Shown in pieces: positions 45,841 to 60,569 of a DNA stretch of 64,000 nucleotides (position 1 is the first letter of the stretch; each line of letters begins with the position of its first letter). The notes under the pieces were generated by a model. That model was not told the origin of the DNA. It was given only the letters and a program-made list of their open reading frames with translations, and did no database searches. Source of the DNA: Zhihengliuella salsuginis (GTDB lineage Bacteria > Actinomycetota > Actinomycetes > Actinomycetales > Micrococcaceae); NCBI RefSeq assembly GCF_014651715.1, contig NZ_BMXK01000008.1, forward strand, positions 1-64,000, written 5' to 3'. A program made the translations under genes and the position numbers.

Positions 45841-45890
45841 GAACAGCCCGGGCGCCCGTTGCGAACGGCGCCCGGGCTGTTCTATGCCCC
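45841..45890. terminator. Strong hairpin between the MarR gene and the nad operon
   Basis: GAACAGCCCGGGCGCC (45841-45856) pairs perfectly with GGCGCCCGGGCTGTTC (45867-45882). It overlaps the last base of the cysteine desulfurase gene and terminates transcription in both directions between convergent units. Confidence 0.85.
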
Positions 45891-47024
45891 GGGGGCGACC
45901 GCCCGGACGGCGGCGACCAGGGCGCGTGCCGTCTGCGTGATCTCGGCCTCCTTCACGTCGCGCGTGAAACTCAGCCGGACCGAGGTCAGCGCCAGGTCCG
46001 GCGCGTAGCCCATCGCGAGGAGGACGGGCGAGGGCTCGTCGCTGTCCGCGTGGCACGCCGAGCCCGAGGAGCACTGGATGCCGCGGCGCTCCAGCTCGAG
46101 CAGGACCGCCTCCCCTGCCGTCCCCGGGAAGCAGAACGAGACGATCCCGGGTACCCGCTGCTCCGGGTGGCCCGTGGGCACCGCCCGGTCCTGCAGGTCC
46201 TGCACGACGGCGTCGCGCAGGTGGGTGCCGAACCCCGCCGCCCGTCCGTCGTCGTCCCGCGCGGCCCGCGCGGCGTGCTGCAGCGCGAGCGCCGTCGCCA
46301 CCGCCCCCGCCACGTTCTCGGTTCCGCCGCGGCGGCCGCGCTCCTGGCCGCCGCCGCCGAGCTGCTCCGCCAGCGGCAGGCGCGCGCGGACCATGAGCAG
46401 CCCGGCCCCCTTGATGCCCCCGATCTTGTGGCCGGAGACGGTCAGCGCGTCGACCCCGCCCGCGAGCTCGGCGAGGTCGAGCCAGCCGGCCGCCTGCACG
46501 GCATCGGTGTGCACCAGCGCCCCGGCGGCGCGCGCGGCTCCGGCGATCTCGGCGATCGGCTGGATCGTTCCGACCTCGTTGTTCACGGCCATGACGGACA
46601 CGAGGGTCGTGTCCTCGCGCAGCGCGCGCGCCACGTCGGCGGGGTCGACCCGGCCCCGCCGGTCCACCCCCACGACGGTCAGCTCGAAGCCGTGGTGCTC
46701 GGCCAGGTACCGGGCGGCGTTGCGCACGGACGAGTGCTCGACCGCGCTGACGACCAGGTGCCGGCCGCGCGGCGCCGCCAGCGCCAGGCCCTTGAGGGCG
46801 AGGTTGTTCGACTCGGTCCCCCCGGAGGTGAAGACCACGTCGTTCTCGCGCACGCCGAGCGCCGCCGCCGACGTGCCGCGCGCGAACGAGAGGGCGCGGG
46901 CGGCCGAGGCGCCGAGCTCGTGCCGGCTGGACGGGTTGCCGAAGTCGTTGGTGAGCAGAGGCCAGACCGTCTGCAGGACGTCCTGCCGCGTCGGCGCCGT
47001 GGCGGCCGCATCCATGTAGATCAC
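45882..47024 (-). CDS. Cysteine desulfurase (NifS/IscS-like) of the nad operon
   Basis: A 380-residue class V PLP enzyme that removes sulfur from cysteine. VFTSGGTESNNLALKG, VEHSSVRNA, HTDAVQAAG, PLP Lys 200 in VSGHKIGGIKGAG and catalytic Cys 324 in CSSGSACHAD are visible. GTG 47024 overlaps the nadC stop (GTGA), with ATG 47015 as alternative. It is the last gene of nrtR-nadA-nadB-nadC-desulfurase. Because quinolinate synthase NadA carries an oxygen-sensitive 4Fe-4S cluster, a dedicated sulfur donor is a reasonable role, known for NifS-like proteins in other nad operons. That role is inferred here. Confidence 0.9.
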   Translation of the reverse strand: MIYMDAAATAPTRQDVLQTVWPLLTNDFGNPSSRHELGASAARALSFARGTSAAALGVRENDVVFTSGGTESNNLALKGLALAAPRGRHLVVSAVEHSSVRNAARYLAEHHGFELTVVGVDRRGRVDPADVARALREDTTLVSVMAVNNEVGTIQPIAEIAGAARAAGALVHTDAVQAAGWLDLAELAGGVDALTVSGHKIGGIKGAGLLMVRARLPLAEQLGGGGQERGRRGGTENVAGAVATALALQHAARAARDDDGRAAGFGTHLRDAVVQDLQDRAVPTGHPEQRVPGIVSFCFPGTAGEAVLLELERRGIQCSSGSACHADSDEPSPVLLAMGYAPDLALTSVRLSFTRDVKEAEITQTARALVAAVRAVAPGA

Positions 47025-47968
47025 GACGCCCCGCCGCCCGTCGCGGCCTCGAAGTCGAGGCCGAGGTCCAGGGAGCGCACGCTGTGCGTCAGCGCGCCCG
47101 AGGAGACGACGTCGACACCCGTGGCCGCGATCTCGCCGATGGTCTCGGCGCGGACGTTGCCCGAGGCCTCCACCAGGCAGCGTCCGGCGACCCGGCGCAC
47201 GCCCTCGGCCAGGTCGGCCAGCGCGAAGTTGTCGAGCATGACCGTGTCCACACCGGCCTCGACGACGGGCTCGAGCTGGTCCAGGCGGTCGATCTCCACC
47301 TCGAAGTGCACGGTGTGGCCCAGCTGCTCCCTGGCCCGGCGCAGGGCCCGGGTCAGCTCCCCGCCGGTGCCGAGCAGGGCGAGGTGGTTGTCCTTGGCCA
47401 TGACGGCCTCGCTGAGGTTGTCCCGGTGGTTGTACCCGCCGCCGCACCTCACGGCGTAGCGTTCGAGCACGCGCAGCCCGGGCGTCGTCTTGCGGGTGTC
47501 GGCGACCCGGACCGGGTGGCCGTTGGCGGAGACGGCGCCGCCGGCCGCGGCGACCATGGCCGCCGTCGCCGTGGCGATGCCGCTGAGCCGCTGCAGGAGG
47601 TTCAGGCCGACCCGCTCGCCGGTCAGCAGCGCCCGCGCCGGACCGCTCACGGTGACCAGGGCGTCCCCGGCCGCGAACCGGTCCCCGTCGGCGAGGTGCT
47701 CGGAGACGGACACCGAATCGTCCACGAGGCGCATGCTGGCGGCGAAGGCGGCGAGCCCGGCGCACACGCCGGCCTCGCGCGCGACGACCCGGCCGACGGC
47801 CGTCGCGGTGTCGTCGATCAGCGTGTCCGCCGTGATGTCGCCGGCGGGCGCGTCCTCCGCGAGGGCCGCGGCCACGATCCGCTCCAGGGCGGGACGCGGC
47901 ACCGGGCGGGGAGCCCGGAGGACCGCCCGCTCACGAATGCTGGGCTGCTGCGAAGGGCTGTGCTGCAT
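47021..47968 (-). CDS. nadC: Nicotinate-nucleotide pyrophosphorylase (carboxylating)
   Basis: A 315-residue quinolinate phosphoribosyltransferase that makes nicotinate mononucleotide from quinolinate and PRPP. Seen: LLTGERVGLNLLQRLSGIAT, VADTRKTTPGLRVLERYAV, RCGGGYNHRDNLSEAVMAKDNH, VEVEIDRLDQL, VDTVMLDNF and LVEASGNV, the QPRT active-site set. The N-terminus overlaps nadB by 38 bases, and a shorter start within the first 25 residues cannot be excluded. Confidence 0.94.
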   Translation of the reverse strand: MQHSPSQQPSIRERAVLRAPRPVPRPALERIVAAALAEDAPAGDITADTLIDDTATAVGRVVAREAGVCAGLAAFAASMRLVDDSVSVSEHLADGDRFAAGDALVTVSGPARALLTGERVGLNLLQRLSGIATATAAMVAAAGGAVSANGHPVRVADTRKTTPGLRVLERYAVRCGGGYNHRDNLSEAVMAKDNHLALLGTGGELTRALRRAREQLGHTVHFEVEIDRLDQLEPVVEAGVDTVMLDNFALADLAEGVRRVAGRCLVEASGNVRAETIGEIAATGVDVVSSGALTHSVRSLDLGLDFEAATGGGAS

Positions 47969-49667
47969 GTCGTTCTCCCCTGTCGGTTCTCGTCGATGTC
48001 GTCGGTGTCGTCGGTGCCGGGCGGTGCCCGTCGGGGCGCCCGGTGTCGTTGCGGAAATGGGCCCCGAGCGAATCCTCCCGGGCCAGGGCCGCGCGCGCGA
48101 TCAGCCGGCCGAGGAGCGCGCGGTTCGCGAGCTCGTGGACGGCGCGGGACTCCCCGCCGCCCAGGCTTCGCTCGGCCTCGGCTGCGATGCGCCCGGCCTC
48201 GGACGCCGCCTCCCGGAGGCCTCGTGCGTTGCGTTCGACGGCCAGGTGCCGGCTGGCGACCCGTCGCAGCCGTGCGGACAGCTCCGCCGTGCCCGGGCCG
48301 GGCAGCGGCGCCCGGTCCGGGGCACCCCGCAGGGGGCGGCGCGGACGGGAACGGGGCGCGGCAGCGGGCGCCGCCGCACCGGCGAGTGCCGCGTCGACGG
48401 CGCGCCAGGCGAAGACGAGGCCCTCCAGCAGCGAGTTGGAGGCGAGCCGGTTGGCCCCGTGGACCCCGGTGCAGGCGGACTCCCCGACCGCGTAGAGACC
48501 GGCGACGCCGGTCCGCCCGCTGGCATCGGTGGCGATCCCGCCCATCCAGTAGTGCTGGGCCTCGGCCACCGGGATCAGGTCGCGGGCCGGATCCAGTCCG
48601 GCGGCGGCGAGGGAGGCGACGATGCCCGGGAAGCGGCCCGCGAGGAAGCCTGCTCCCCGGCTGCGCTCGATCCCGCGGGCGTCGAGGAAGACGCCGCCCG
48701 TCGCGCGGCGCCGGGCGTGGATGGCGCGGGCGACGACGTCCCGCGGGGACAGCTCGGCGCGCGGGTCGGCGGAGGGCATGAAGCGCTCCCCCGCCCCGTC
48801 GAGCAGCACAGCGCCCTCGCCCCGCACGGCCTCCGAGATCATGAGCGTGGGGGCGTCCTGCGCCCCGGGCGGGCGGGTGCCGACGGCCGCGGCGTCCAGC
48901 AGGGTGGGGTGGAACTGGATGAACTCGAGGTCGCGGAGCCGGGCGCCGGCCCGCCAAGCCAGCGCCGCCCCGTCCCCCGTCGCCCCGGACGGGTTGGTCG
49001 TGAATTCGTAGAGCTGGCCGATGCCGCCCGTCGCGATGACGACCGCGTCCCCTGCGAGCTCCCGGATCGGCCCGTCCGGACCGGCCGCCCCGCCGGCGAG
49101 CAGGCGCACGCCGGCGACCGTGCCGTCGTCGTGCTGGACGAGATCCGTGACGAACGCGTTCTCGAGGATCCGCAGGCGGCCGCGGGCCTCGGCGGTGCGG
49201 CACGCGCGGATGAGCGCGGACGCGATGCCGGCGCCCGTCGCGTCCCCGCCGTGGTGCAGGATGCGGGCGTGCGAATGCGCGCCCTCCAGCCCCAGGGCGA
49301 ACCCGCGCTCCGCACGGTCGAACTCCGTTCCGGCCGCGATCAGGCGCTCGACGTGGGTCCACGCCTCGCGGCAGAGGAGCTCGACGGCGGCCGGGTCGCC
49401 GGCGTGCGCCCCGGCCGTCAGGGTGTCGGCGATGTGCGAGGCGACGCTGTCGCCCGCCGCCTCCGAGTCCGGCGAGACCGCGGCGATCCCGCCCTGGGCG
49501 TACCAGGTGTTCGAATCCTGCAGCCGGTCCTTCGTGACGAGGGTGGCGGCCGGCTCCCCCGCCGCACGCGACCGCTCGGCGGCGGCGAGGGCGGCGTAGA
49601 GCCCGGCGATGCCGGAGCCGACGATGATCAGCGAACGCGCCCCGCCCCCTCCGACGGCGGTGCTCAC
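47931..49667 (-). CDS. nadB: L-aspartate oxidase
   Basis: A 578-residue FAD enzyme that oxidises aspartate to iminoaspartate for NadA. Seen: SLIIVGSGIAGLYAALAAAE for FAD, DSNTWYAQGGIAAVSPDSEA, EGAHSHARILHHGGDATG, TGGIGQLYEFTTNPSGATGDG, EFIQFHPT, AEAQHYWMGGIATDASGRT and GESACTGVHGANRLASNSLLEGLVFAWRA read in parts. GTG 49667 overlaps the nadA stop (GTGA). The C-terminal ~45 residues are a low-complexity Thr/Pro/Arg tail, not expected to be catalytic. Confidence 0.94.
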   Translation of the reverse strand: MSTAVGGGGARSLIIVGSGIAGLYAALAAAERSRAAGEPAATLVTKDRLQDSNTWYAQGGIAAVSPDSEAAGDSVASHIADTLTAGAHAGDPAAVELLCREAWTHVERLIAAGTEFDRAERGFALGLEGAHSHARILHHGGDATGAGIASALIRACRTAEARGRLRILENAFVTDLVQHDDGTVAGVRLLAGGAAGPDGPIRELAGDAVVIATGGIGQLYEFTTNPSGATGDGAALAWRAGARLRDLEFIQFHPTLLDAAAVGTRPPGAQDAPTLMISEAVRGEGAVLLDGAGERFMPSADPRAELSPRDVVARAIHARRRATGGVFLDARGIERSRGAGFLAGRFPGIVASLAAAGLDPARDLIPVAEAQHYWMGGIATDASGRTGVAGLYAVGESACTGVHGANRLASNSLLEGLVFAWRAVDAALAGAAAPAAAPRSRPRRPLRGAPDRAPLPGPGTAELSARLRRVASRHLAVERNARGLREAASEAGRIAAEAERSLGGGESRAVHELANRALLGRLIARAALAREDSLGAHFRNDTGRPDGHRPAPTTPTTSTRTDRGERHAAQPFAAAQHS

Positions 49668-50959
49668 GGCTTCGCGTCGAGCATGCGCTGGAGGGCGACC
49701 TTCGCGTGCGCGGTCGTCCCCTCGTCGACGGTGATCCGGTTGACCACGCGGCCCGCGACGAGCTCCTCCAGGACCCAGGCCAGGTAGCCCGGGTGGATGC
49801 GGTACATCGTCGAGCACGGGCAGACCACCGGGTCGAGGCAGAAGATCGTGTGCTGCGGGTACTCGTCCGCCAGGCGGTTGACCATGTTGACCTCGGTGCC
49901 GATGGCGAACACGCTCGGCTCGGTCGCCGCCGCGACGGCCTTGCGGATGAAATCGGTGGAGCCCGCGGCATCGGCCGCGTCGACGACGGGCATCGGGCAC
50001 TCGGGGTGGACGATCACCTGCACCTCGGGGAACTGCGCCCGGGCGCCCTCGATCTGCTCGACCGTGAAGCGCTTGTGCACCGAGCAGAAGCCGTGCCAGA
50101 GGATCACGCGGGCGTCGCGCAGCGTCTGCTCGTCGTTGCCGCCGAGGGCCGCGCGCGGGTTCCACATGGGCATGGCCTCGAGGGGCACGCCCATGGCCTT
50201 GGCCGTGTTCCGGCCCAGGTGCTGGTCGGGGAAGAACAGGACCCGCCGGCCGCGTTCGAACGCCCATTCGAGCACCGTCGCCGCGTTCGAGGAGGTGCAC
50301 ACGATTCCGCCGTTGCGCCCGACGAAGCCCTTCAACGCGGCGGAGGAGTTCATGTAGGTCACGGGCACGACGGCGGCGCGCCCGTCGTCGTCCTCGTCCG
50401 CGTAGAGCTCCATGAGCTGCTCCCAGCACTCCTCGACGCTGGAGGAATCGGCCATGTCCGCCATCGAGCAGCCGGCCGCCAGGTTGGGCAGGACCACCGC
50501 CTGGTCGTCGCGGGAGAGGATGTCGGCCGTCTCTGCCATGAAGTGCACGCCGCAGAACACGATGTACTTCGCGTCCTCGCGGGACAGGGCCGCGTTGGCG
50601 AGCTGGAAGGAGTCGCCGACGAAGTCCGCGTGCTCGACGACCTCGTCGCGCTGGTAGAAGTGCCCGAGCACCACGAGATCCTCGCCGAGCTGCTCCTTGG
50701 CGCGGCGGATCCGCCCGCCGAGCTCGGCGTCGTCGGCCAGCCGGTACTCCTCGGGGATCACGCCCTGGCGCGGCGTGTCCGCGGGGGCGACGTCCTCCAT
50801 CGAGGACCCGGGCCCGTAGGCCGGCGAGCCGGCGTCGAAATTCCACGGTGAGACGGCCAGCTCCGGCGTGCACGAGCCGCCGGCGGCCGGCGACGTCGCC
50901 GCACCGGGGGCCGGACGGGCCGTCTCGAAGCTCTGGATCTTGACTTGGACGCTTGTCAT
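49664..50959 (-). CDS. nadA: Quinolinate synthase A
   Basis: A 431-residue 4Fe-4S enzyme condensing iminoaspartate with dihydroxyacetone phosphate to quinolinate. Seen: VLGHFYQRDEVVEHADFVGDSFQLA, IVFCGVHFMAETADIL, MNSSAALKGFVGR with IVCTSSNAATVLEWA, LFFPDQHLGRNTAKAMG, VIVHPECPMPVV and CPCSTMYRIHPGYL with cluster cysteines. A non-conserved extension of about 70 residues precedes the core, as usual for actinobacterial NadA. ATG 50959 has GGAAGG upstream. It overlaps the end of the NrtR gene by four bases. Confidence 0.95.
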   Translation of the reverse strand: MTSVQVKIQSFETARPAPGAATSPAAGGSCTPELAVSPWNFDAGSPAYGPGSSMEDVAPADTPRQGVIPEEYRLADDAELGGRIRRAKEQLGEDLVVLGHFYQRDEVVEHADFVGDSFQLANAALSREDAKYIVFCGVHFMAETADILSRDDQAVVLPNLAAGCSMADMADSSSVEECWEQLMELYADEDDDGRAAVVPVTYMNSSAALKGFVGRNGGIVCTSSNAATVLEWAFERGRRVLFFPDQHLGRNTAKAMGVPLEAMPMWNPRAALGGNDEQTLRDARVILWHGFCSVHKRFTVEQIEGARAQFPEVQVIVHPECPMPVVDAADAAGSTDFIRKAVAAATEPSVFAIGTEVNMVNRLADEYPQHTIFCLDPVVCPCSTMYRIHPGYLAWVLEELVAGRVVNRITVDEGTTAHAKVALQRMLDAKP

Positions 50960-51741
50960 ACTCGTGAACCTTCCTGGGGGGATGCGGTGGCGGCAGGGGC
51001 CGGGGCGGGCAGTGCGGTGACAGGGTCTTCGTAGCGGTAGAGCTTCGGCGGGCGGTGCTTGACGCCGTGCAGGTGCTCCCCCGTCTCGACCAGGCCCGGC
51101 GAGCCCTTGAGCTGGCGCCGAAAGTTGGCGGGATCGAGCGTCGTGTCGAGGACGACCTCGTACACCTCGCGGACCTGGGCGAGCGTGAACCGGTCTCCCA
51201 GCAGGCGGTGGGCGACCTTCCCGTAGGTCACCTTGTTCCGCAGCCGCCAGAGCGCGTACTCCACGATCCGGCCGTGGTCGAAGGCCAGCTGCTCCCGGAC
51301 CTCGGGCGAGTCGACCGGGAACCAGGCGACGTTGGGGTCTTCGATGAGCTCTGAATGGGGCGCGCCCCGGTCGTCGCGCGCCCCGCTCGTGTCGGCCTGG
51401 CGGACGAGCGCCCAGTAGACGATCGAGACGACCCGCCGCGCCGGCGAGCGGTCGGTGCCGCCGAACGCGTAGAGCTGCTCGAGGTAGCGCGGCACCAGGC
51501 CCGTGGTCGTGCGCAGGTTCTCCGCGGCCGCGGACTGGAGCGACTGCTCCGCGGCCAGCGGCCCTCCCGGCAGCGCCCACTGCCCGCGGTACGGCTGGCG
51601 GGTGCGCCTCACCAGGGGGATCCACAGCCGCAGGGGGCTGTCCTCGTCCGCGCCGCGGTCGCGGCGCAGGGAGAAGATCACGGTGGAGACCGCCAGCTCC
51701 GGGCTCGTCGCGGCCCGCTCGGAGACGTTCAGAAATTCCAT
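50956..51741 (-). CDS. nrtR: NrtR-type Nudix-related transcriptional regulator of NAD synthesis
   Basis: A 261-residue protein with an N-terminal Nudix-fold domain (VIFSLRRD, RQPYRGQWALPGGPL, then a degenerate Nudix box in which the REUXEEXGU part reads AAENLRTTTGL). The C-terminal winged helix carries YGKVAHRLLGDRFTLAQVREVYEVVLDTTLDPANFRRQL and the NrtR end piece PPKLYRY. In NrtR proteins the Nudix domain senses ADP-ribose-like ligands and the wing binds DNA. ATG 51741 was chosen: the longer frame from 51786 would run through a 25-base palindrome that looks like the operator. It is first gene of the nad operon, hence probably autoregulated. Confidence 0.88.
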   Translation of the reverse strand: MEFLNVSERAATSPELAVSTVIFSLRRDRGADEDSPLRLWIPLVRRTRQPYRGQWALPGGPLAAEQSLQSAAAENLRTTTGLVPRYLEQLYAFGGTDRSPARRVVSIVYWALVRQADTSGARDDRGAPHSELIEDPNVAWFPVDSPEVREQLAFDHGRIVEYALWRLRNKVTYGKVAHRLLGDRFTLAQVREVYEVVLDTTLDPANFRRQLKGSPGLVETGEHLHGVKHRPPKLYRYEDPVTALPAPAPAATASPQEGSRV

Positions 51742-51758
51742 GGATCCCGCCGGTGAAG

Positions 51759-51783
51759 AGTTAATGTCACAACGACTATAACT
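51759..51783. promoter_or_regulatory. Candidate NrtR operator upstream of nrtR-nadABC
   Basis: AGTTAATGTC, five bases ACAAC, then GACTATAACT: each 10-base arm matches the inverted partner at eight positions. It starts 18 bases upstream of the nrtR start and overlaps the stop codon of the Lrp-type gene. A 21-25 base palindrome with GTC/GAC around a short centre is the general form of NrtR sites. Confidence 0.7.
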
Positions 51784-52249
51784 CATCCGGCACCGCGGCC
51801 GCCTCGACGAGCGGCAGCATGCGCGACGCGATCGGCGTATTCAGCACGACCGACGACGACGACCGCACCACAGTGCCGGTGGCCAGGACCGCGTCGAGCA
51901 CGCGCTGCAGATCCGCGTTCGACCGCGCTACGACGCACGCCAGCAGGTCGAACTCGCCGGAGACGGTGTGCAGCTCGAGCACCTCGGGAATACCGGCGAG
52001 CGCGGCGGCGACGCCGTCGTGCCCGGCGTCCTGGTGGATGGCGAGCGAGCAGTAGGCGCGCACGGGGTAGCCGATCCCTTCGGGGTCCAGCTGCGGCCCC
52101 CACCCGGTGATCGCCCCCGCGGCCTGGAGCTTGTCCAGCCGCGCCTGGACAGTGGCGCGGGCGACGGCGAGCGCGCGGGAGGCTTCGAGGACGGACATCT
52201 TGTGGTCGCCGGTGAAGAGAGCGACGATTCGGGCGTCAAGGGTGTCCAT
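51776..52249 (-). CDS. Lrp/AsnC-family transcriptional regulator
   Basis: A 157-residue regulator. The N-terminal helix-turn-helix (DARIVALFTGDHKMSVLEASRALAVARATVQARLDKLQAAGAI, read in parts) is followed by a RAM effector domain (YCSLAIHQDAG, LELHTVSGEFDLLACVVARS, VVRSSSSVVLNTPI). It is divergently transcribed from the oxoacid dehydrogenase genes with 116 bases between, the usual place for a BkdR-like local regulator that responds to an amino or oxo acid. Three similar 13-base direct repeats lie in that gap. Confidence 0.92.
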   Translation of the reverse strand: MDTLDARIVALFTGDHKMSVLEASRALAVARATVQARLDKLQAAGAITGWGPQLDPEGIGYPVRAYCSLAIHQDAGHDGVAAALAGIPEVLELHTVSGEFDLLACVVARSNADLQRVLDAVLATGTVVRSSSSVVLNTPIASRMLPLVEAAAVPDEL

Positions 52250-52365: not shown

Positions 52366-53415
52366 ATGAATACTCTGTCCTACGGCCGCGCCGCTCTGCC
52401 CGACGCCGAGCTGGTGCGCCTCTTTTCCCAGATGACGCAGGTGAGGCACCTGGACACGTCGGCGATCGCCTGGCAGCGCCAGGGCATCCTCCCCGGCTAC
52501 GCGCCGATGCGCGGCCAGGAGGCCGCCCAGGTGGGCAGCGTGGCCGCGCTCGACATGTCCCGCGACTTCGTCTTCCCGACCTACCGCGAGATGGGCGCGG
52601 CTCTGGCCGCCGGCGTCGATATGGGCGAGTACATGGCGACCCACAAGGCGACGTGGAACGGCGGCATGTACGACGCCCGCGAAACCCGGGTCACGCCGAT
52701 CCAGACGGTGATCGGCGGGTCCGCGCTGCACGCCGTCGGGTGGGCGCACGGGCAGCGGCTGGACGCCGCCGCGGCCGGGGCGGACGAACCACTGGACCTG
52801 CCGGTCGCGCTGGTCTACCTCGGCGACGGAGCGAGCTCGCAGGGCGACATCCACGAGGCGATGAACTTCGCCGGCGTCTTCGAGACGCCGACCGTGTTCT
52901 TCGTCCAGAACAACGGCTGGGCCATCTCCGTTCCGACGGAGCGCCAGGTCGCCGGCGGCTCGGTGGCCGCACGCGGCGCGGGCTACGGCATCGCGTCGAT
53001 CCACGTGGACGGGAACGACGTCGAGGCGGTCGTCCAGGCGACACGCGCCGCCGTCGCCCACGCCCGCTCCGGCGCGGGACCCGCCGTCGTCGAGGCGATG
53101 ACCTACCGGCGCGGCCCCCACTCGACGTCGGACGACCCGGGGCGCTACCGCTCACTGGCCGAGGAGCGTCGCGACGGCGGGGTGGACCCCATGGACGCGC
53201 TCAGGGACCGCCTCCTCGAGGCCGGCGCGCTGACGGCGGAGGACGTCGCGGCGATTCAGAGCGAGGCCGAGGCATTCGAGGAACGCGTCCGGGCCGACGT
53301 CCAGGCCCAGGGGCCCCGGCCGGGGGCCGAGATGTTCGAGTACGTCTATCAGGAGATGCCGGCACCCCTGCGCGAGCAGGCCGCCGCATGGCGAGAGGAA
53401 TCCGATCATGTCTAA
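52366..53415 (+). CDS. 2-oxoacid dehydrogenase E1 component, alpha subunit
   Basis: A 349-residue ThDP-dependent subunit that decarboxylates a 2-oxo acid. The ThDP-Mg motif is YLGDGASSQGDIHEAMNFAG at 151-170 with NN at 182-183. RGQEAAQVG at 50-58 and YRRGPHSTSDDPGRYR near residue 250 are typical of branched-chain and acetoin-type E1 alpha. ATG 52366 (MNTLSYGRAALPDAELVRLF) is the normal start; an upstream in-frame TTG would overlap the repeat region. The stop overlaps the beta-subunit start by eight bases. Branched-chain oxo acids are the likeliest substrates, acetoin an alternative. Confidence 0.92.
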   Translation: MNTLSYGRAALPDAELVRLFSQMTQVRHLDTSAIAWQRQGILPGYAPMRGQEAAQVGSVAALDMSRDFVFPTYREMGAALAAGVDMGEYMATHKATWNGGMYDARETRVTPIQTVIGGSALHAVGWAHGQRLDAAAAGADEPLDLPVALVYLGDGASSQGDIHEAMNFAGVFETPTVFFVQNNGWAISVPTERQVAGGSVAARGAGYGIASIHVDGNDVEAVVQATRAAVAHARSGAGPAVVEAMTYRRGPHSTSDDPGRYRSLAEERRDGGVDPMDALRDRLLEAGALTAEDVAAIQSEAEAFEERVRADVQAQGPRPGAEMFEYVYQEMPAPLREQAAAWREESDHV

Positions 53416-54460
53416 TGCCGTAGCCACCCCGCCGGTGGATGCCGGCGCGGGCCGGACCGTCCCCGCAGAGCGCACCGGACGGACGACCCTGTCCATGAAC
53501 CAGGCCATCAACGCGGCGCTGCACGACGCGCTCGCGGAGAACCCGCGCACGCTCGTCCTCGGCGAGGACGTGGGCCGGCTCGGCGGCGTCTTCCGCGTCA
53601 CGGACGGGCTGCAGGCGAAGTTCGGGGCCGACCGCGTCTTCGACACCCCGCTGGCGGAGTCGGGCATCCTGGGCATGTCGGCCGGCCTCGCGATGGCGGG
53701 CTACCACCCGATCCCCGAGGTCCAGTTCGACGGGTTCACCTACCCGGCGATCAACCAGCTGGTCACGCAGATCGCCCGGATGAACTTCCGCACCCGCGGC
53801 GCCCTGCCGATGCCCATCACGCTGCGCATGCCGAGCTTCGGCGGCATCCAGTCCCCCGAGCTGCACTCGGAGTCACTCGAGTGGCTGTTCGCCCACGTGG
53901 CCGGACTGAAGGTCGTCTCCCCGTCCAGCCCGCACCAGGCGTACCACCTGCTGCGGCACGCCGCGCAGCGCCCGGACCCCGTGGTCTACATGGAGCCGAA
54001 GTCGCGCTACTGGCAGAAGGGCCGGGTCGACTTCGACGAGCCCGGAAACCTCGAGGGCGCGCACGTCGCCCGCGCCGGACGGCACCTGACGCTTGTCGCG
54101 TGGGGCGCGATGGTCTCCCGGTGCCTGCAGGCGGCGGAGGCCGCCGCGGAGGACGGGCTCGACGTCGAGGTCCTCGACCTGCGCTGGCTCTCCCCCATCG
54201 ACGCGGACGCCCTGGCGGCGTCGATCAGCAAGACGCGGCGCGCCGTCGTCGTGCACGAGGCCCCGAAGACCGCGGGCCTGGGCGCCGAGGTCTCCCAGCT
54301 CATCACGGAGCGGTGCTTCGGCACGCTCAAGGCCCCGGTGGAGCGCGTGACCGGCTTCGACGTGCCGTTCCCCTCCGGGAGCCTCGAGAACGAATACATC
54401 CCGAACATCGACCGCATCCTGTATGGGATCCAGCGCGTATTGGAGTACCGCCGTGGCTGA
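53408..54460 (+). CDS. 2-oxoacid dehydrogenase E1 component, beta subunit
   Basis: A 350-residue transketolase-like beta subunit. Seen: LSMNQAINAALHDALAENPRTLVLGEDVGRLGGVFRVTDGL, FDTPLAESGILGMSAGLAMAGYHPIPEVQF and a C-terminal domain with DLRWLSPIDADALAASISKT and VVHEAPKTAGLGAEV (read in parts). It completes the alpha2beta2 E1 with the upstream gene. Overlap with the next gene by eight bases indicates tight stoichiometric coupling to the lipoyl-domain protein. Confidence 0.93.
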   Translation: MSNAVATPPVDAGAGRTVPAERTGRTTLSMNQAINAALHDALAENPRTLVLGEDVGRLGGVFRVTDGLQAKFGADRVFDTPLAESGILGMSAGLAMAGYHPIPEVQFDGFTYPAINQLVTQIARMNFRTRGALPMPITLRMPSFGGIQSPELHSESLEWLFAHVAGLKVVSPSSPHQAYHLLRHAAQRPDPVVYMEPKSRYWQKGRVDFDEPGNLEGAHVARAGRHLTLVAWGAMVSRCLQAAEAAAEDGLDVEVLDLRWLSPIDADALAASISKTRRAVVVHEAPKTAGLGAEVSQLITERCFGTLKAPVERVTGFDVPFPSGSLENEYIPNIDRILYGIQRVLEYRRG

Positions 54461-54779
54461 ACTGTCCTTCCCCCTGCCCGATCTCGGCGAGGGCCTCATC
54501 GAGGCCACCATCCTCGAGTGGCTCGTCGAGGAGGGCGAGCACGTCGAGCGCAACCAGCCGCTCGTCGAGGTCGAGACGACCAAGAGCTCGCTCGAGCTGC
54601 CCAGCCCGCAGACCGGCGTCGTGGTGCGCACGCACGGCGGACCGGGTGAGACGATCGACGTGGGCGACCCGCTCATCGTGTTCGAGGTCCCCGACGACAC
54701 CGCCGGGATCATCGGCACCGTCCCGAAGGACGAGAAGCCGAAGCGGCGGGTGCGACTGAACGTCGACCTCGATGACTGA
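54453..54779 (+). CDS. Stand-alone lipoyl-domain protein (E2-like carrier only)
   Basis: A 108-residue protein consisting of little more than one biotinyl/lipoyl domain: LSFPLPDLGEGLIEATILEWLVEEGEHVERNQPLVEVETTKSSLELPSPQTGVV in pieces, with lipoyl-acceptor Lys 44 in ETTKSS (normally DKA). There is no E3-binding domain and no acyltransferase catalytic domain with HxxxDG. GTG 54453 has GGAG eight bases upstream and overlaps the E1 beta stop. It can carry the acyl group made by E1, but another protein must complete transfer; the next gene, an alpha/beta hydrolase, is the obvious candidate. Confidence 0.9.
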   Translation: MAELSFPLPDLGEGLIEATILEWLVEEGEHVERNQPLVEVETTKSSLELPSPQTGVVVRTHGGPGETIDVGDPLIVFEVPDDTAGIIGTVPKDEKPKRRVRLNVDLDD

Positions 54780-54789
54780 CGGAGGAACC

Positions 54790-55560
54790 ATGACCTCAAC
54801 CCGACTACTCGGCGTCCAGGCCTTCGGCGACGCCGCAGGGCTGCCCCCCGTCGTCCTGATCCACGGGTTCGCCTCGTCGATCCACGCGAACTGGGAGGCC
54901 ACGGGCTGGATCCGGCACCTGACAGAGGCGGGCCGGCGCGTCGTCGCCGTCGAGCTGCCGGGCCACGGGAACACCCCGGCCGCTGCCGACTGGACACCGG
55001 CGGACCTCGTCGAAGAGGTCGCCTCCGTGATCGATGAGCACGTCGGCGTCGCGGACGTGATCGGCTACTCCCTGGGAGCGCGGCTCGGCTGGGAGCTGGC
55101 CGGCCGGCACCCGGAGCGCGTGCGGCGCCTCGTGCTCGGCGGCGCGGCGGCCGTGGACCCGTTGGCCGGGTTCGACACAGCGGAAGCGCACCGCGTCCTC
55201 GACCCGACCGACGGGGCCGACGCGATGTCCGACCCGGTCTCCGAGCAGCTGCTGGGCGCGGCCCGGGCCGGCGAGCAGATGCTCGGTCGCTCGGACGGGC
55301 TGGCCACCGTGCTGGCATTCATTGAATCCATCCAGTCGCAGCGCTACGATCCGGCCAGCTCCGTGCCGACGTCTCCCACGCTGGCCGTCGCCGGCGAGCG
55401 CGACGACCTCGCGGAGACCAGCGCCGAGCTGTTGCGGCTGGTGCGCGAGGCGGGCGGGGAGGCGCCCGACGTCGTCCTGGTGCCCGGGCGGACCCACGCG
55501 AACGCGGTGACGGCGCGGGCGTTCAAGCGGGCGGCGACGGAGTTCCTCGCCGCCGAATAG
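54790..55560 (+). CDS. Alpha/beta hydrolase, candidate acyl-transfer partner of the lipoyl protein
   Basis: A 256-residue alpha/beta-hydrolase fold enzyme: oxyanion-hole region VVLIHGFASS, nucleophile Ser 94 in VIGYSLGARLG, acid Asp at about 205-206 (AGERDD) and His 236 in GRTHANAV. No signal peptide. ATG 54790 follows GGAGG. Acetoin dehydrogenase E2 (AcoC) of several bacteria fuses a lipoyl domain to exactly this type of hydrolase fold, so the split pair here may together be the E2. Whether it hands the acyl group to CoA or hydrolyses it is unknown. Confidence 0.87.
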   Translation: MTSTRLLGVQAFGDAAGLPPVVLIHGFASSIHANWEATGWIRHLTEAGRRVVAVELPGHGNTPAAADWTPADLVEEVASVIDEHVGVADVIGYSLGARLGWELAGRHPERVRRLVLGGAAAVDPLAGFDTAEAHRVLDPTDGADAMSDPVSEQLLGAARAGEQMLGRSDGLATVLAFIESIQSQRYDPASSVPTSPTLAVAGERDDLAETSAELLRLVREAGGEAPDVVLVPGRTHANAVTARAFKRAATEFLAAE

Positions 55561-55568
55561 AGACCCCC

Positions 55569-55600
55569 GACCCTCCGGCGCCGCGGCGCGCCGGAGGGTC
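55569..55600 (+). terminator. Terminator hairpin after the dehydrogenase operon
   Basis: GACCCTCCGGCG (55569-55580) pairs perfectly with CGCCGGAGGGTC (55589-55600), directly followed by TTGACATT. The last bases double as the -35 region of the next promoter. Confidence 0.8.
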
Positions 55601-55642: not shown

Positions 55643-55667
55643 TTCATACATGACACCGGGAGGGTCC

Positions 55668-57188
55668 GTGACCACCACACCTGAAGGCAACGACGCCGCA
55701 CACGCCACGACCGTCGACGCCGCGTTCTGCGAGCGCGTCGGCAAGGTCGTCGCCGTCCACCTGGCCTACCGGTCCCGCGCCGAGCAGCGCGGGCGGACGC
55801 CGACCTTCCCGTCCTACTTCATGAAGGCCACCTCCTCCCTGGCGGCGACCGGCGAAACGGTCGAACGCCCCGCCGGGACCGAGCTGCTCGCCTTCGAGGG
55901 CGAGATCGCCCTCGTCATCGGCACAGCCGCCCGCCGCATCTCCCCCGACGAGGGCTGGGGCCACGTCGGGTGGGTCACCGCGAGCAACGACCTCGGCCTG
56001 TACGACATCAAGTACGCCGACAAGGGTTCGAACGTACGTTCGAAATCGGGTGACGGGTTCACCCCGATCGGGCCCGCGCTGCTCCCCGCAGCCGACGTCG
56101 ACCCGGGCAACCTGCGGATCCGCACGTGGGTCAACGGGAGTCTCGCCCAGGACGCCACCACCGAGGAGCTGATCTTCAGCTTCGGGCAGATCGTCGCCGA
56201 CCTCTCCCAGCAGATGACGCTGCAGCCGGGCGACGTGGTCCTCACCGGCACCCCCGCCGGCTCGTCGGTCATCGTGCCCGGGGACGTCGTGGAGGTCCAG
56301 GTCGACGACGTCGCCTCCTCCCGCTCCACGGGCCGGCTCTCGACGACCGTCACCGAGGGCGCCGAGGGCTTCGCCGCCTTCGGCAACCCCACGAAGATCA
56401 CCGACGCCGACCGCATCGACGCGTTCGGCACCCCGGAGGCCGCGGGCATCGAGCGCCCGCTCACCGGGGCCGAGGCCCTGACCGAGGGCGTCAAGGAGAA
56501 ACTGCTCTCCGTCGCCACCGCCACCATCTCCGGGGCCCTGCGCAAGCGGGGACTGAACAACGTCGCCATCGAGGGCCTGACGGCCACGAAGGGCACCCGC
56601 AAGGTCATCGGGCTCGCCCGCACCCTGCGCTACGTCCCCAACCGCGAGGACCTGTTCAAGTCCCACGGCGGCGGCTACAACGCCCAGAAACGGGCGATGG
56701 ACTCTCTCGAGCCGGGCCAGATCCTGGTCATGGAGGCCCGCGGCGAGCAGGGCTCGGCCACGCTCGGCGACATCCTCGCCCTGCGCACGCAGGTCGCGGG
56801 CGCCGAGGCCATCATCACCGACGGCGGTGTACGCGACCTCTCCGCCGTCGAGGACCTCGACATCCCGGCGTTCCACAACGGCGCCCACCCCGCGGTCCTC
56901 GGCCGCAAGCACGTCCCCTGGAGCATCGACGAGACGATCGGCTGCGGCGGCACCACCGTCCAGCCCGGCGACATCATCGTCGGGGACGCCGACGGCATCC
57001 TCGTGATCCCGCCGGCACTGGCCGCCGAGATCGCCGACGAGACCGTCGAGCAGGAGCGCCGCGACACCTTCGTGTTCGAGCACGTCAAGAAGGGCCACAA
57101 GATCGACGGGCTCTTCCCCATGAACAAGGACTGGCTGGAGAAGTACCACGCGTGGGTCAACTCGGGAGCGGACCTTGACGCCCTCTAA
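55668..57188 (+). CDS. Fusion of FAH-type decarboxylase/isomerase (HpaG-like) and RraA-type aldolase-like domain
   Basis: A 506-residue two-domain protein. Residues 20-225 are an FAH domain with metal ligands Glu 77 and Glu 79 (FEGEIALVIG) and Asp 108 (ASNDLG), plus LQPGDVVLTGTPAGSS. This matches HpaG, which decarboxylates and isomerises the homoprotocatechuate ring-cleavage acid. Residues 275-480 are RraA-like (TATISGALRKRGLNNVAIEGL). LGD at 366-368, exactly 20 residues, then RD at 389-390 form the GD-x20-RD motif of class II pyruvate aldolases. Regulatory RraA proteins lack its metal Asp. So the second half may be an aldolase. GTG 55668 has GGGAGG five bases upstream. It overlaps the GntR gene by 14 bases. 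Confidence 0.87.
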   Translation: MTTTPEGNDAAHATTVDAAFCERVGKVVAVHLAYRSRAEQRGRTPTFPSYFMKATSSLAATGETVERPAGTELLAFEGEIALVIGTAARRISPDEGWGHVGWVTASNDLGLYDIKYADKGSNVRSKSGDGFTPIGPALLPAADVDPGNLRIRTWVNGSLAQDATTEELIFSFGQIVADLSQQMTLQPGDVVLTGTPAGSSVIVPGDVVEVQVDDVASSRSTGRLSTTVTEGAEGFAAFGNPTKITDADRIDAFGTPEAAGIERPLTGAEALTEGVKEKLLSVATATISGALRKRGLNNVAIEGLTATKGTRKVIGLARTLRYVPNREDLFKSHGGGYNAQKRAMDSLEPGQILVMEARGEQGSATLGDILALRTQVAGAEAIITDGGVRDLSAVEDLDIPAFHNGAHPAVLGRKHVPWSIDETIGCGGTTVQPGDIIVGDADGILVIPPALAAEIADETVEQERRDTFVFEHVKKGHKIDGLFPMNKDWLEKYHAWVNSGADLDAL

Positions 57189-57858
57189 ATCCGAGCAGGC
57201 CTACGAGCTGCTGCAGTCGAAGATCGTCTCCGGGGACTACTCCCCCGGGTACCGGCTCGTGCTCAGCTCCCTCGCCGCGGAGCTCGGCTGCAGCGTCGTC
57301 CCCGTCCGCGAGGCGATCCGCCGCCTCGAGGCCGAGGGGCTCGTCTCCTTCGAACGGAACGTCGGCGCGACCGTCGCCAGTGTCGACGCGACGCTCTACC
57401 TGAACACGATGCAGACGCTCTCCATCCTCGAGGGGGCGGCCACCGCGCTCGCGGCACCGCTCATCAGCGACGAGACCCTCGCGGAGGCGCGCCGCCTCAA
57501 CCGCGAGATGGAGGCCTGCCTCGCCGACTTCGATCCCGATCGGTTCTCGCGGCTGAACATCGCCTTCCACGAGCTCCTGTACGGCTCGTGCCCGAACCCC
57601 CACATCCTCGACCTCGTGCACCGGGGCTGGAAGCGGATGCGGGCCATGCGCTCGCCGACGTTCTCCACCGTCCCGGGCCGGGCGCGCAACTCCGTCGCGG
57701 AGCACGACGCGCTGCTGGACCTGCTCGTCTCGCAGGCCCCGTCGGCGGCCGTCGAGGCGGCAGCCCGGGAGCACCGCACCAACACCCTCAACGCCTACCT
57801 GGCCGTCGCGGGCCTGCCACCGTCCACGCTGACGCTGCCCGCCGCAGTTCACCCCTGA
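57175..57858 (+). CDS. GntR-family regulator with FCD domain
   Basis: A 227-residue regulator. The winged helix (AYELLQSKIVSGDYSPGYRLVLSSLAAELGCSVVPVREAIRRLEAEGLVSFERN in pieces) is followed by an all-helical FCD ligand domain (LEGAATALAAPLIS, FHELLYGSCPN, EHDALLDLLVSQ with the metal/ligand His residues). The start is TTG 57175, with GGAG upstream, inside the end of the fusion gene. FadR-type regulators of this class usually repress catabolic operons until a pathway acid binds. The palindrome at 55631-55642 is the likely site. Confidence 0.9.
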   Translation: MTPSKSEQAYELLQSKIVSGDYSPGYRLVLSSLAAELGCSVVPVREAIRRLEAEGLVSFERNVGATVASVDATLYLNTMQTLSILEGAATALAAPLISDETLAEARRLNREMEACLADFDPDRFSRLNIAFHELLYGSCPNPHILDLVHRGWKRMRAMRSPTFSTVPGRARNSVAEHDALLDLLVSQAPSAAVEAAAREHRTNTLNAYLAVAGLPPSTLTLPAAVHP

Positions 57859-57886
57859 CCGCTTTTCACTGTCGAAAGGACAACCC

Positions 57887-59392
57887 ATGAGCAAGCACTT
57901 CGTCCCGGAGGACCTCCCCACCCGCATCCAGCACTACATCGGTGGCCAGTTCGTCGACTCCGTCGGCGGCGAGACCTTCGAGGTCCTCGACCCGGTGACC
58001 AACCAGACGTACGCCACGGCCGCCTCCGGCCAGAAGGCGGACATCGACGCGGCCGTCGCCGCCGCCACCGAGGCCTTCGAGAACGGCCCGTGGCCGCGCA
58101 TGAAGCCCCGGCAGCGGGCGAACATCCTCAACAAGATCGCCGACGCCGTCGTCGCCCAGGAGGACCGCCTCGCCGAGCTGGAAACGTTCGACACGGGCCT
58201 GCCGATCACCCAGGCGCGCGGCCAGGCCCAGCGCGCCGCGGAGAACTTCCGCTTCTTCGCGGACCTGATCGTCGCCCAGCACGACAACGCGTTCAAGGTC
58301 CCGGGCTCGCAGGTCAACTACGTCAACCGCAAGCCGATCGGCGTCGCGGGCCTGATCACCCCGTGGAACACCCCGTTCATGCTCGAGTCCTGGAAGCTCG
58401 CCCCGTCGATCGCCTCCGGCTGCACGGTCGTCCTGAAGCCGGCCGAGTTCACGCCGCTGTCGGCGTCCCTGTGGGCGACCATCTTCAAGGAGGCCGGCCT
58501 GCCGGACGGCGTCTTCAACATGGTCAACGGGCTCGGCGAGTCCGCCGGCGACGCCCTCGTCAAGCACCCGGACGTCCCGCTGATCTCCTTCACGGGCGAG
58601 TCCTCCACCGGCCAGACCATCTACCGCAACTGCGCTGAGGGCCTCAAGGGCATGTCGATGGAGCTCGGCGGCAAGTCGCCGGCCATCGTCTTCGCCGACG
58701 CCGATTTCGACGCCGCGATCGATTCGACCCTCTTCGGCGTCTTCTCCCTGAACGGCGAACGCTGCACCGCCGGCTCCCGCATCCTCGTCGAGCGCAGCAT
58801 CTACTCGAAGTTCTGCGAGGCGTACGCCGCCCGGGCGAAGACCATCAAGGTGGGCGACCCCCACGACCCGGAGACCCAGGTGGGGGCGCTCGTGCACCCC
58901 GAGCACTACGACAAGGTGATGAGCTACGTCGAGCTCGGCAAGTCCGAGGGCCGCGTCCTCGCCGGCGGGGGCCGCCCGGAGAACCTCCCGGAGGGCCAGG
59001 AGAACGGCTCGTACGTGGCCCCGACGGTCTTCGCCGACGTCGCCCCGGACGCCCGCATCTTCCAGGAGGAGATCTTCGGCCCGGTCGTCGCGATCACCCC
59101 GTTCGACACCGACGAGGAGGCCCTCGCCCTCGCCAACAACACCAAGTACGGCCTGGCCGCCTACGTGTGGACGACCAACCTCAAGCGCGCCCACAACTTC
59201 GCCCAGGACGTCGAGGCCGGCATGGTCTGGCTCAACAGCCACAACGTCCGCGACCTGCGCAGCCCCTTCGGCGGCGTCAAGGCATCCGGACTCGGCAACG
59301 AGGGCGGCTACCGCTCGATCGACTTCTACACCGACCAGCAGGCCGTGCACATCACCCTCGGCGATGTGCACACCCCCAAGTTCGGCGGCTGA
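57887..59392 (+). CDS. hpaE: 5-carboxymethyl-2-hydroxymuconate semialdehyde dehydrogenase
   Basis: A 501-residue NAD-dependent aldehyde dehydrogenase. Seen: GLITPWNTPFMLESWKLAPSIASGCTVVLKPAE, FTGESSTGQTIYRN, the general base in MELGGKSPAIVFADAD and the catalytic Cys in NGERCTAGSRILVE, QEEIFGPVVAI and SPFGGVKASGLGNEGG. The ALDH fold alone does not fix the substrate, but position between the FAH-type gene and the ring-cleavage dioxygenase points to the semialdehyde of the homoprotocatechuate meta pathway. ATG 57887 follows AAAGGA. Confidence 0.9.
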   Translation: MSKHFVPEDLPTRIQHYIGGQFVDSVGGETFEVLDPVTNQTYATAASGQKADIDAAVAAATEAFENGPWPRMKPRQRANILNKIADAVVAQEDRLAELETFDTGLPITQARGQAQRAAENFRFFADLIVAQHDNAFKVPGSQVNYVNRKPIGVAGLITPWNTPFMLESWKLAPSIASGCTVVLKPAEFTPLSASLWATIFKEAGLPDGVFNMVNGLGESAGDALVKHPDVPLISFTGESSTGQTIYRNCAEGLKGMSMELGGKSPAIVFADADFDAAIDSTLFGVFSLNGERCTAGSRILVERSIYSKFCEAYAARAKTIKVGDPHDPETQVGALVHPEHYDKVMSYVELGKSEGRVLAGGGRPENLPEGQENGSYVAPTVFADVAPDARIFQEEIFGPVVAITPFDTDEEALALANNTKYGLAAYVWTTNLKRAHNFAQDVEAGMVWLNSHNVRDLRSPFGGVKASGLGNEGGYRSIDFYTDQQAVHITLGDVHTPKFGG

Positions 59393-59471
59393 CACCGCCC
59401 GGCACCGCCCTTCCGACGGCGGCACCCACAGCCGCGTGCCGCCGTCGTACCGAACCACCAGGAGAGAAACA

Positions 59472-60569
59472 ATGAGCAACGAGATCCCCCGGCCCACCGC
59501 CCCGGCCCCCGACATCCTGCGCTGCGCCTACATGGAGCTGGTCGTCACCGACCTCGCCAAGTCCCGCGACTTCTATGTCGACCTGCTCGGCCTGCACGTG
59601 ACCGAAGAGGACGAGAACCAGATCTACCTGCGCTCCTTCGAGGAGTTCATCCACCACAATCTGGTCCTCACCAAGGGCCCCGTCGCCGCGCTGAAGGCCA
59701 TGGCCTTCCGGGTGCGCGCCCCCGAGGACGTGGACCTCGCCGAGGCCTACTACCAGGAGCTGGGCTGCCGCACCGAACGCCGCAAGGACGGCTTCGTCAA
59801 CGGCGTCGGCGACGCCCTGCGCGTGGAGGACCCGCTGGGCTTCCCGTACGAGTTCTTCCACGAGGTCGACCACGTCGAGCGCCTGCACATGCGCTACGAC
59901 CTCTACTCGGCCGGCGAGCTGGTCCGCCTGGACCACTTCAACCAGGTCACCCCGGACGTCCAGCGCGGCCGCAAGTACCTGGAGGACCTGGGCTTCCGCG
60001 TCACCGAGGACATCAAGGACGAGGAGGGCACCACCTACGCCGCCTGGATGCACCGCAAGGGCACCGTGCACGACACCGCGCTCACGGGCGGCAACGGCCC
60101 GCGCATGCACCACGTCGCCTTCTCCACCCACGAGAAGCACAACATCATCCAGATCTGCGACAAGATGGGCGCTCTGCGCATGTCCGACCGGATCGAGCGC
60201 GGCCCCGGCCGCCACGGCGTCTCCAACGCGTTCTACCTGTACATCCTCGACCCGGACGACCACCGCATCGAGATCTACACGCAGGACTACTACACGGGCG
60301 ACCCGGACAACCCCACCATCACCTGGGACGTCCACGACAACCAGCGCCGCGACTGGTGGGGCAACCCGGTCGTCCCGTCCTGGTACACCGAGGCCTCCCT
60401 GGTCCTCGACCTCGACGGCAACCCGCAGGAGGTCATCGAGCGCACGGACGACTCGGAGATGGCCGTGACCGTCGGCGCCGACGGGTTCTCCTACACCCGC
60501 GAGGACGACGAGTCCGGCACCTACCGCGGCCAGGCCTCGAAGGGCTTCAAGCTCGGCAACCAGGTCTGA
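59472..60569 (+). CDS. hpaD: Homoprotocatechuate (3,4-dihydroxyphenylacetate) 2,3-dioxygenase
   Basis: A 365-residue vicinal-oxygen-chelate extradiol dioxygenase that opens the ring of 3,4-dihydroxyphenylacetate. Metal ligands fall at His 155 (VRLDHFNQ), His 214 (RMHHVAF) and Glu 267 (HRIEIYT). Second-sphere His 200 (GTVHDT), Arg 243 and Tyr 257 are also in place. These numbers equal those known for the Brevibacterium fuscum iron enzyme, also 365 residues long. ATG 59472 has GGAGA upstream; the frame extends further only as overlap with hpaE. It is last gene of the operon and is followed by a long perfect hairpin. Confidence 0.96.
   Translation: MSNEIPRPTAPAPDILRCAYMELVVTDLAKSRDFYVDLLGLHVTEEDENQIYLRSFEEFIHHNLVLTKGPVAALKAMAFRVRAPEDVDLAEAYYQELGCRTERRKDGFVNGVGDALRVEDPLGFPYEFFHEVDHVERLHMRYDLYSAGELVRLDHFNQVTPDVQRGRKYLEDLGFRVTEDIKDEEGTTYAAWMHRKGTVHDTALTGGNGPRMHHVAFSTHEKHNIIQICDKMGALRMSDRIERGPGRHGVSNAFYLYILDPDDHRIEIYTQDYYTGDPDNPTITWDVHDNQRRDWWGNPVVPSWYTEASLVLDLDGNPQEVIERTDDSEMAVTVGADGFSYTREDDESGTYRGQASKGFKLGNQV

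Follow-up and report, generated by a model that had tools for sequence, protein, structure and literature searches.

We describe here a four-gene operon of Zhihengliuella salsuginis, located in a stretch of 64,000 nt (contig NZ_BMXK01000008.1, positions 1–64,000, assembly GCF_014651715.1; hereafter, the window), which encodes the E1alpha and E1beta subunits of a 2-oxoacid dehydrogenase, a stand-alone lipoyl carrier, and an alpha/beta hydrolase. With a confidence slightly better than even, we propose that this quartet is a nicotinamide adenine dinucleotide (NAD)-dependent 4-hydroxyphenylpyruvate dehydrogenase that dispenses with an E2 acyltransferase, acts in the catabolism of tyrosine or other aromatic amino acids, and releases free 4-hydroxyphenylacetate by thioester hydrolysis. 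The gene content of the operon, the absence of E2 domains, the co-conservation of the genes, the invariance of catalytic residues, and the gene linkage described below were all directly observed.

In the predicted mechanism, E1alpha and E1beta would use thiamine diphosphate (TPP) to decarboxylate 4-hydroxyphenylpyruvate, and the 4-hydroxyphenylacetyl group would be placed on the lipoyl arm at Lys44 of the free 108-residue carrier. The hydrolase (Ser94-Asp205-His236) would then use water to cleave the S-acyl-dihydrolipoyl thioester, yielding free 4-hydroxyphenylacetate and no acyl-coenzyme A (acyl-CoA), while a housekeeping dihydrolipoyl dehydrogenase encoded elsewhere would reoxidize the carrier. 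The net reaction would be 4-hydroxyphenylpyruvate + NAD+ + H2O → 4-hydroxyphenylacetate + CO2 + NADH, and 4-hydroxyphenylacetate would subsequently enter the homoprotocatechuate pathway.

Gene content of the operon

The open reading frames together with Pfam matches establish the four-gene set, all on the + strand, and the features of the operon are as follows.

52366–53415, + strand: E1alpha, 349 residues (PF00676, 244.6 bits; TPP motif GDGASSQGD..NN; HSTSDD motif)
53408–54460, + strand: E1beta, 350 residues (PF02779 and PF02780)
54453–54779, + strand: stand-alone lipoyl carrier, 108 residues, GTG start (PF00364, 67.9 bits)
54582–54584, + strand: Lys44 codon of the carrier, predicted lipoylation site (ETTKS; invariant in the carrier alignment)
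54790–55560, + strand: alpha/beta hydrolase, 256 residues, ATG at 54790 (PF00561, 75.1 bits); proposed acyl-lipoyl thioesterase
55069–55071, + strand: Ser94 codon of the hydrolase, nucleophile (GYSLG; invariant in 38 aligned hydrolases)
55402–55404, + strand: Asp205 codon of the hydrolase, proposed triad acid (invariant in the same 38)
55495–55497, + strand: His236 codon of the hydrolase, proposed triad base (invariant in the same 38)
51776–52249, − strand: Lrp/AsnC-family regulator, divergent, upstream of E1alpha (PF01037 and AsnC helix-turn-helix)
55569–55600, + strand: perfect 13-bp inverted repeat (hairpin) 3' of the hydrolase gene, seen in the sequence

Overlaps of 8 bp join E1alpha to E1beta and E1beta to the carrier, 10 bp separate the carrier stop from the hydrolase start, and the hairpin probably marks the end of the operon. 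A sequence-only reading of the region had described the same four genes, the first three overlapping and the hydrolase beginning about ten bases further on, and both coordinates and Pfam agree with it. It had also seen neither a classical E2 catalytic domain nor an E3-binding domain, and the Pfam scan of the operon likewise returned no match to the E2 acyltransferase domain (PF00198) or to an E3-/peripheral-subunit-binding domain. The matches obtained were E1_dh, Transket_pyr and Transketolase_C, Biotin_lipoyl, and Abhydrolase_1, with nothing else notable. The quartet thus has the TPP-dependent E1alpha/E1beta pair of a 2-oxoacid dehydrogenase (PF00676, PF02779, PF02780) and a lipoyl domain with a modifiable lysine (PF00364, invariant Lys44; lipoylation itself is predicted), while PF00198 occurs only elsewhere in the genome.

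A profile search of the contigs (3.37 Mb, 32 contigs) located five PF00198 domains outside the quartet. One belongs to SucB, which adjoins a dihydrolipoyl dehydrogenase, one lies in a 1295-residue open frame that appears to resemble the Kgd protein, and three are part of E1alpha-E1beta-E2 operons. The E1alpha proteins of these three operons pass the cut-off of the pyruvate dehydrogenase E1alpha equivalog TIGR03181, whereas the quartet E1alpha does not (366 bits, cut-off 411). Judged by its sequence, the quartet E1alpha is a fourth, diverged E1 lacking an E2 of its own. Dihydrolipoyl dehydrogenase (E3) is absent from the operon; one encoded elsewhere (C2; TIGR01350, 422 bits, above cut-off) may serve the quartet carrier.

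The carrier is 70–94% identical to its orthologues. Lys44, which is presumably lipoylated, is invariant in the carrier alignment, and so is the RRVRL motif of the short tail. Its structure model is poor, with a predicted local distance difference test (pLDDT) score of 60.7 and an unresolved tail, and no structural claim was drawn from it. AlphaFold predicts the hydrolase with high confidence (pLDDT 94.6), and the fold (Z up to 24.3), together with the Ser94/Asp205/His236 triad, identifies the protein as an alpha/beta serine hydrolase. The model is about equally close to enol-lactonases, esterases, and C-C hydrolases (Z 22–24), and because so many hydrolase families match almost equally well, the fold does not name the substrate.

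Co-conservation of the four genes

The sequence-only reading had suggested a search for the gene quartet in relatives, which we carried out in a sample of 149 genomes of the family, calling orthologues at E ≤ 1e-44 for the carrier and E ≤ 1e-80 for E1alpha. The carrier was found in 50 genomes and E1alpha in the identical 50, 48 of which also gave a strong match to the hydrolase. In the remaining two, which are the most diverged, the carrier stop is followed, 2 bp further on, by the start of a hydrolase of approximately 35% identity in which the catalytic residues are preserved. These two hydrolases (L054:7906-8634 and L055:7796-8509) have no Pfam match at 1e-10, yet Ser, Asp, and His are retained.

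Furthermore, the hydrolase gene directly follows the carrier gene in each of 80 named Micrococcaceae loci, from Arthrobacter, Paenarthrobacter, Pseudarthrobacter, Sinomonas, Zhihengliuella, and others, so that the hydrolase is co-conserved, whereas a lack of co-conservation would have told against its link to the carrier. E1beta is present in 79 of these loci, E1alpha and the Lrp regulator in 78 each; 64 also have an amino acid permease. All four quartet genes occur together in 78 loci, and the other two miss part of the set only within the fetched stretch. The arrangement is not due to chance. Carrier and hydrolase are encoded by two separate genes both in the window and in every relative examined.

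Outside the family, one sampled genome of the order (G343, locus L183) has the set, with a carrier 67% identical to that of the window. The order Lrp-E1alpha-E1beta-carrier-hydrolase is whole there and stands in a different gene neighborhood, and the presence of the hydrolase with the others there argues for its being part of the set. The quartet of the window adjoins NAD biosynthesis genes (nadA, nadB, nadC, a NifS-like gene, and a Nudix regulator; 45882–51786), a neighborhood that recurs in many relatives, and part of the quartet synteny is therefore inherited.

Gene linkage and the candidate substrate

Beyond the hairpin lies a second operon of homoprotocatechuate (hpa) genes, three of whose products score above their NCBIfam cut-offs. 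The sequence-only reading was right about the quartet genes but missed these adjoining ones (55650–60569).

55650–57188, + strand: FAH-RraA fusion, predicted homoprotocatechuate decarboxylase/isomerase and aldolase (PF01557 and PF03737; NF009399, 791 bits, cut-off 444)
57175–57858, + strand: GntR/FCD regulator (Pfam)
57887–59392, + strand: HpaE, 5-carboxymethyl-2-hydroxymuconate semialdehyde dehydrogenase (TIGR02299, 668 bits, cut-off 638)
59463–60569, + strand: HpaD, homoprotocatechuate 2,3-dioxygenase (TIGR02295, 463 bits, cut-off 321)

The FAH-RraA fusion could combine two steps, decarboxylase/isomerase and aldolase, in a single polypeptide.

Within approximately 10 kb of the 80 loci, at least one hpa gene was found in 44 cases (HpaB in 28, HpaD/HpaE in 18); by chance, such linkage would be expected at about 0.5% per single-copy gene. 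HpaB-1 (586 bits, cut-off 480) and HpaH (365 bits, cut-off 351.5) were verified in loci of relatives. The quartet stands together with HpaB, HpaC, and FAH-RraA in Arthrobacter mobilis and A. hankyongi, with HpaE and HpaD following in A. mobilis; the order in Sinomonas is permease, quartet, FAH-RraA, GntR, HpaE, HpaD, HpaH, HpaI.

In G343, the hpa genes do not adjoin the quartet, and HpaD lies on another contig. Beside the quartet are an aminotransferase, which is nearest to a "putative phenylalanine aminotransferase" (4r2n; 285 bits vs 149 for the next), and an ABC transporter with a TrpX-like binding protein (312 bits, under the cut-off of 390). The best solved relative of this binding protein is 6HNI, the tyrosine-binding CD0873 (PMC6816091). 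Both kinds of neighborhood suggest aromatic amino acids, and it is this gene linkage that points to an arylpyruvate as the substrate of the quartet.

The sequence-only reading had called the E1alpha branched-chain-like. Compared with E1 structures, it is about as close to branched-chain enzymes (186 bits) as to pyruvate enzymes (181 bits), and it carries the HSTSDD motif. Together with the Lrp-type regulator and a permease nearest to gamma-aminobutyric acid (GABA) permease, this would suit another substrate, i.e., branched-chain 2-oxo acids, pyruvate/acetoin, or the oxo acid of a GABA-like amino acid. We nevertheless regard such a substrate as quite unlikely, as the three complete E1alpha-E1beta-E2 operons, whose E1alpha proteins pass the TIGR03181 cut-off, probably cover ordinary 2-oxo acids, and the genes linked to the quartet belong to aromatic/4-hydroxyphenylacetate metabolism or, in L183, encode an aromatic aminotransferase and a Tyr/Trp-type transporter. 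On the same grounds, a branched-chain function was given up as first choice. The permease scores below every cut-off and was not used as substrate evidence.

The hydrolase might also be an independent enzyme of aromatic catabolism (an enol-lactonase, C-C hydrolase, or ester hydrolase) with no tie to the complex beyond a common operon. Its fold is nearest to 3-oxoadipate enol-lactonase, other lactonases, esterases, and C-C hydrolases, and several lineages carrying only the hydrolase have it near hpa genes (L078, L069, L061). We consider this very unlikely in view of the adjacency to the carrier in all 80 loci and of G343, where the hydrolase is within the quartet and HpaD on a different contig; moreover, a hydrolase of this kind is not known to be required in the homoprotocatechuate route.

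Evidence against the proposed function

Several observations weigh against a dedicated 4-hydroxyphenylpyruvate dehydrogenase. The hpa linkage is partly inherited from one ancestral neighborhood, 36 of the 80 loci show none, and the linked permease scores best, below cut-off, as a GABA permease. Furthermore, no recognizable HpaB (PF03241) was found in this genome or in any sampled genome of its genus, and the step following 4-hydroxyphenylacetate is therefore unexplained here. Across the family sample, PF03241 occurs in only 41 of 149 genomes compared to 135 for HpaD, so that most HpaD-positive genomes have no recognizable 4-hydroxyphenylacetate hydroxylase. Being so widespread, HpaD alone was rejected as a discriminator. 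At least 85 HpaD-positive genomes are without the quartet, and hence the homoprotocatechuate pathway can run without it. In addition, the 4-hydroxyphenylpyruvate activity of the older literature was described as an oxidase using O2 and not as an NAD-linked complex.

The chief evidence against a strictly dedicated partner is that 47 of the 149 genomes contain an orthologous hydrolase but neither E1alpha nor carrier, a persistence the sequence-only reading could not see, and the hydrolase thus has a further role outside the complex. In the hydrolase tree, the states with and without E1 and carrier are interspersed, requiring 10 changes, of which at least 6 are forced by well-supported branches, and E1alpha-E1beta-carrier thus behaves as a single unit with repeated losses (or gains). 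In L078 and L060 (genomes G134 and G009), the amino acid permease and the hydrolase stand side by side with E1alpha-E1beta-carrier gone, although these three genes are present in other members of their genera. Speculatively, an ABHD11-like action on acyl-lipoyl groups of other complexes would suit both situations.

The classical E2s encoded elsewhere in the genome likewise count against the proposal. On contig C5 (L043:1401-6264), a complete E1alpha-E1beta-E2 operon is immediately preceded by an aminotransferase gene whose product is nearest to the phenylalanine aminotransferase 4r2n, and this operon could process aryl-pyruvates via CoA. E1 and carrier of the quartet might similarly act on aromatic 2-oxo acids with transfer of the acyl group to CoA, carried out by a classical E2 from another locus or by the hydrolase itself, acting as the acyltransferase that AcoC is supposed to be, the hydrolase then being an acyltransferase or an arylacetyl-CoA thioesterase. 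The five PF00198 domains, the hydrolase-only genomes, which would be expected of an enzyme whose CoA substrate is diffusible, and AcoC, annotated as an acetyltransferase, as the best NCBIfam relative of the hydrolase are in line with this explanation. We still judge it unlikely: the carrier has no E3/E1-binding domain with which to join another E2 core, the hydrolase adjoins the carrier throughout the named loci, and HpaB acts on free 4-hydroxyphenylacetate, which would make CoA transfer followed by hydrolysis wasteful.

A route from tyrosine via homogentisate was also considered for this genome and dismissed, as the sole match resembling 4-hydroxyphenylpyruvate dioxygenase (87 bits, at L081, G000:C6:138750-139646) turned out to be the C-terminal portion of a 3-dehydroshikimate dehydratase of the QuiC type.

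Comparison with known systems

In characterized lipoate-dependent complexes, the acyl-lipoyl intermediate normally goes to CoA. Only five such complexes were listed in a 2018 count (PMC6067878). The quartet shares its E1alpha/E1beta and lipoyl domain families with the branched-chain and pyruvate dehydrogenase complexes but differs from them in an operon without E2 core or E3/E1-binding domain and in a carrier of 108 residues. We regard it as a variant of the 2-oxoacid dehydrogenase complexes, which would become a distinct type if carrier hydrolysis were confirmed.

The AcoC-type E2 of acetoin dehydrogenase (NF011457/PRK14875) is similar in that a lipoyl domain and an alpha/beta hydrolase fold serve one TPP-dependent E1alpha/E1beta, whereas the quartet has them on two separate genes instead of one polypeptide and in a context of aromatic catabolism. 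Against NF011457 (cut-off 307), the hydrolase scores 72.4 bits and the carrier 52.5. A survey of 297 genomes of the class gave no fused relative scoring above the AcoC cut-off, and no acetoin-specific E1 model was among the matches. Of the sequence-only idea of a separated AcoC-like E2, the functional resemblance to the two halves of AcoC holds, but score and architecture speak against AcoC membership and leave a distant similarity.

The human mitochondrial serine hydrolase ABHD11, a glutaryl-lipoyl thioesterase, hydrolyzes acyl-lipoyl thioesters (PMC12643935), as is proposed for the quartet hydrolase, and by analogy the acyl-dihydrolipoyl carrier may be hydrolyzed instead of passing its acyl group to CoA. 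Both enzymes resemble PDB 7c4d, the modeling template of ABHD11 and Foldseek rank 14 for the quartet hydrolase. ABHD11 differs in being a repair/regulatory enzyme acting on the 2-oxoglutarate dehydrogenase complex and not an obligatory catalytic step. Phenylglycine biosynthesis in Streptomyces pristinaespiralis likewise combines, by description and not by sequence, a phenylpyruvate dehydrogenase (PglB/PglC) and a thioesterase (PglD) in one operon; it is biosynthetic, and the part of the account considered here mentions no dedicated lipoyl carrier (PMC10685826).

Gram-positive bacteria including an Arthrobacter convert tyrosine via 4-hydroxyphenylpyruvate and 4-hydroxyphenylacetate to homoprotocatechuate (Sparnins and Chapman 1976; Blakley 1977, cited in PMC2991359). 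Arthrobacter arilaitensis uses tyrosine, and the 4-hydroxyphenylpyruvate oxidase gene is among those that could not be located in its genome (PMC2991359), while GapMind left out the route from tyrosine via 4-hydroxyphenylacetate because too little was known about it (PMC9007349). Tyrosine and 4-hydroxyphenylacetate both support growth of Arthrobacter sp. Rue61a (PMC3534580), whose near relative Paenarthrobacter aurescens TC1 carries the quartet (L090). The predicted chemistry, with a 2-oxo acid in and a free acid one carbon shorter out, would fit the missing Arthrobacter step, as does the taxonomic range, although that activity (Blakley 1977, cited in PMC2991359), for which no gene has been located, is known as an oxidase and the quartet is predicted to be NAD-dependent. 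Tentatively, at somewhat less than even confidence, we advance a further reading: the quartet would be a 2-oxoacid dehydrogenase free of E2, whose small, diffusible lipoyl carrier delivers its acyl group to a dedicated serine hydrolase to yield an acid without CoA, and it would moreover be the missing enzyme from 4-hydroxyphenylpyruvate to 4-hydroxyphenylacetate in Gram-positive tyrosine catabolism. If true, the products of such complexes would extend to free aryl-acetic acids with NADH conserved, the recently found lipoyl thioesterase ABHD11 would have a bacterial counterpart, and candidate genes would be at hand for the step from tyrosine to 4-hydroxyphenylacetate, which was described in the 1970s and is to this day recorded without a gene.

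Plasmid-borne relatives were set aside as comparisons: those of the hydrolase in Sinorhizobium and R. opacus are without E1 or lipoyl neighbors, and those of E1alpha in Rhodococcus (approximately 43%) lie beside a classical E2.

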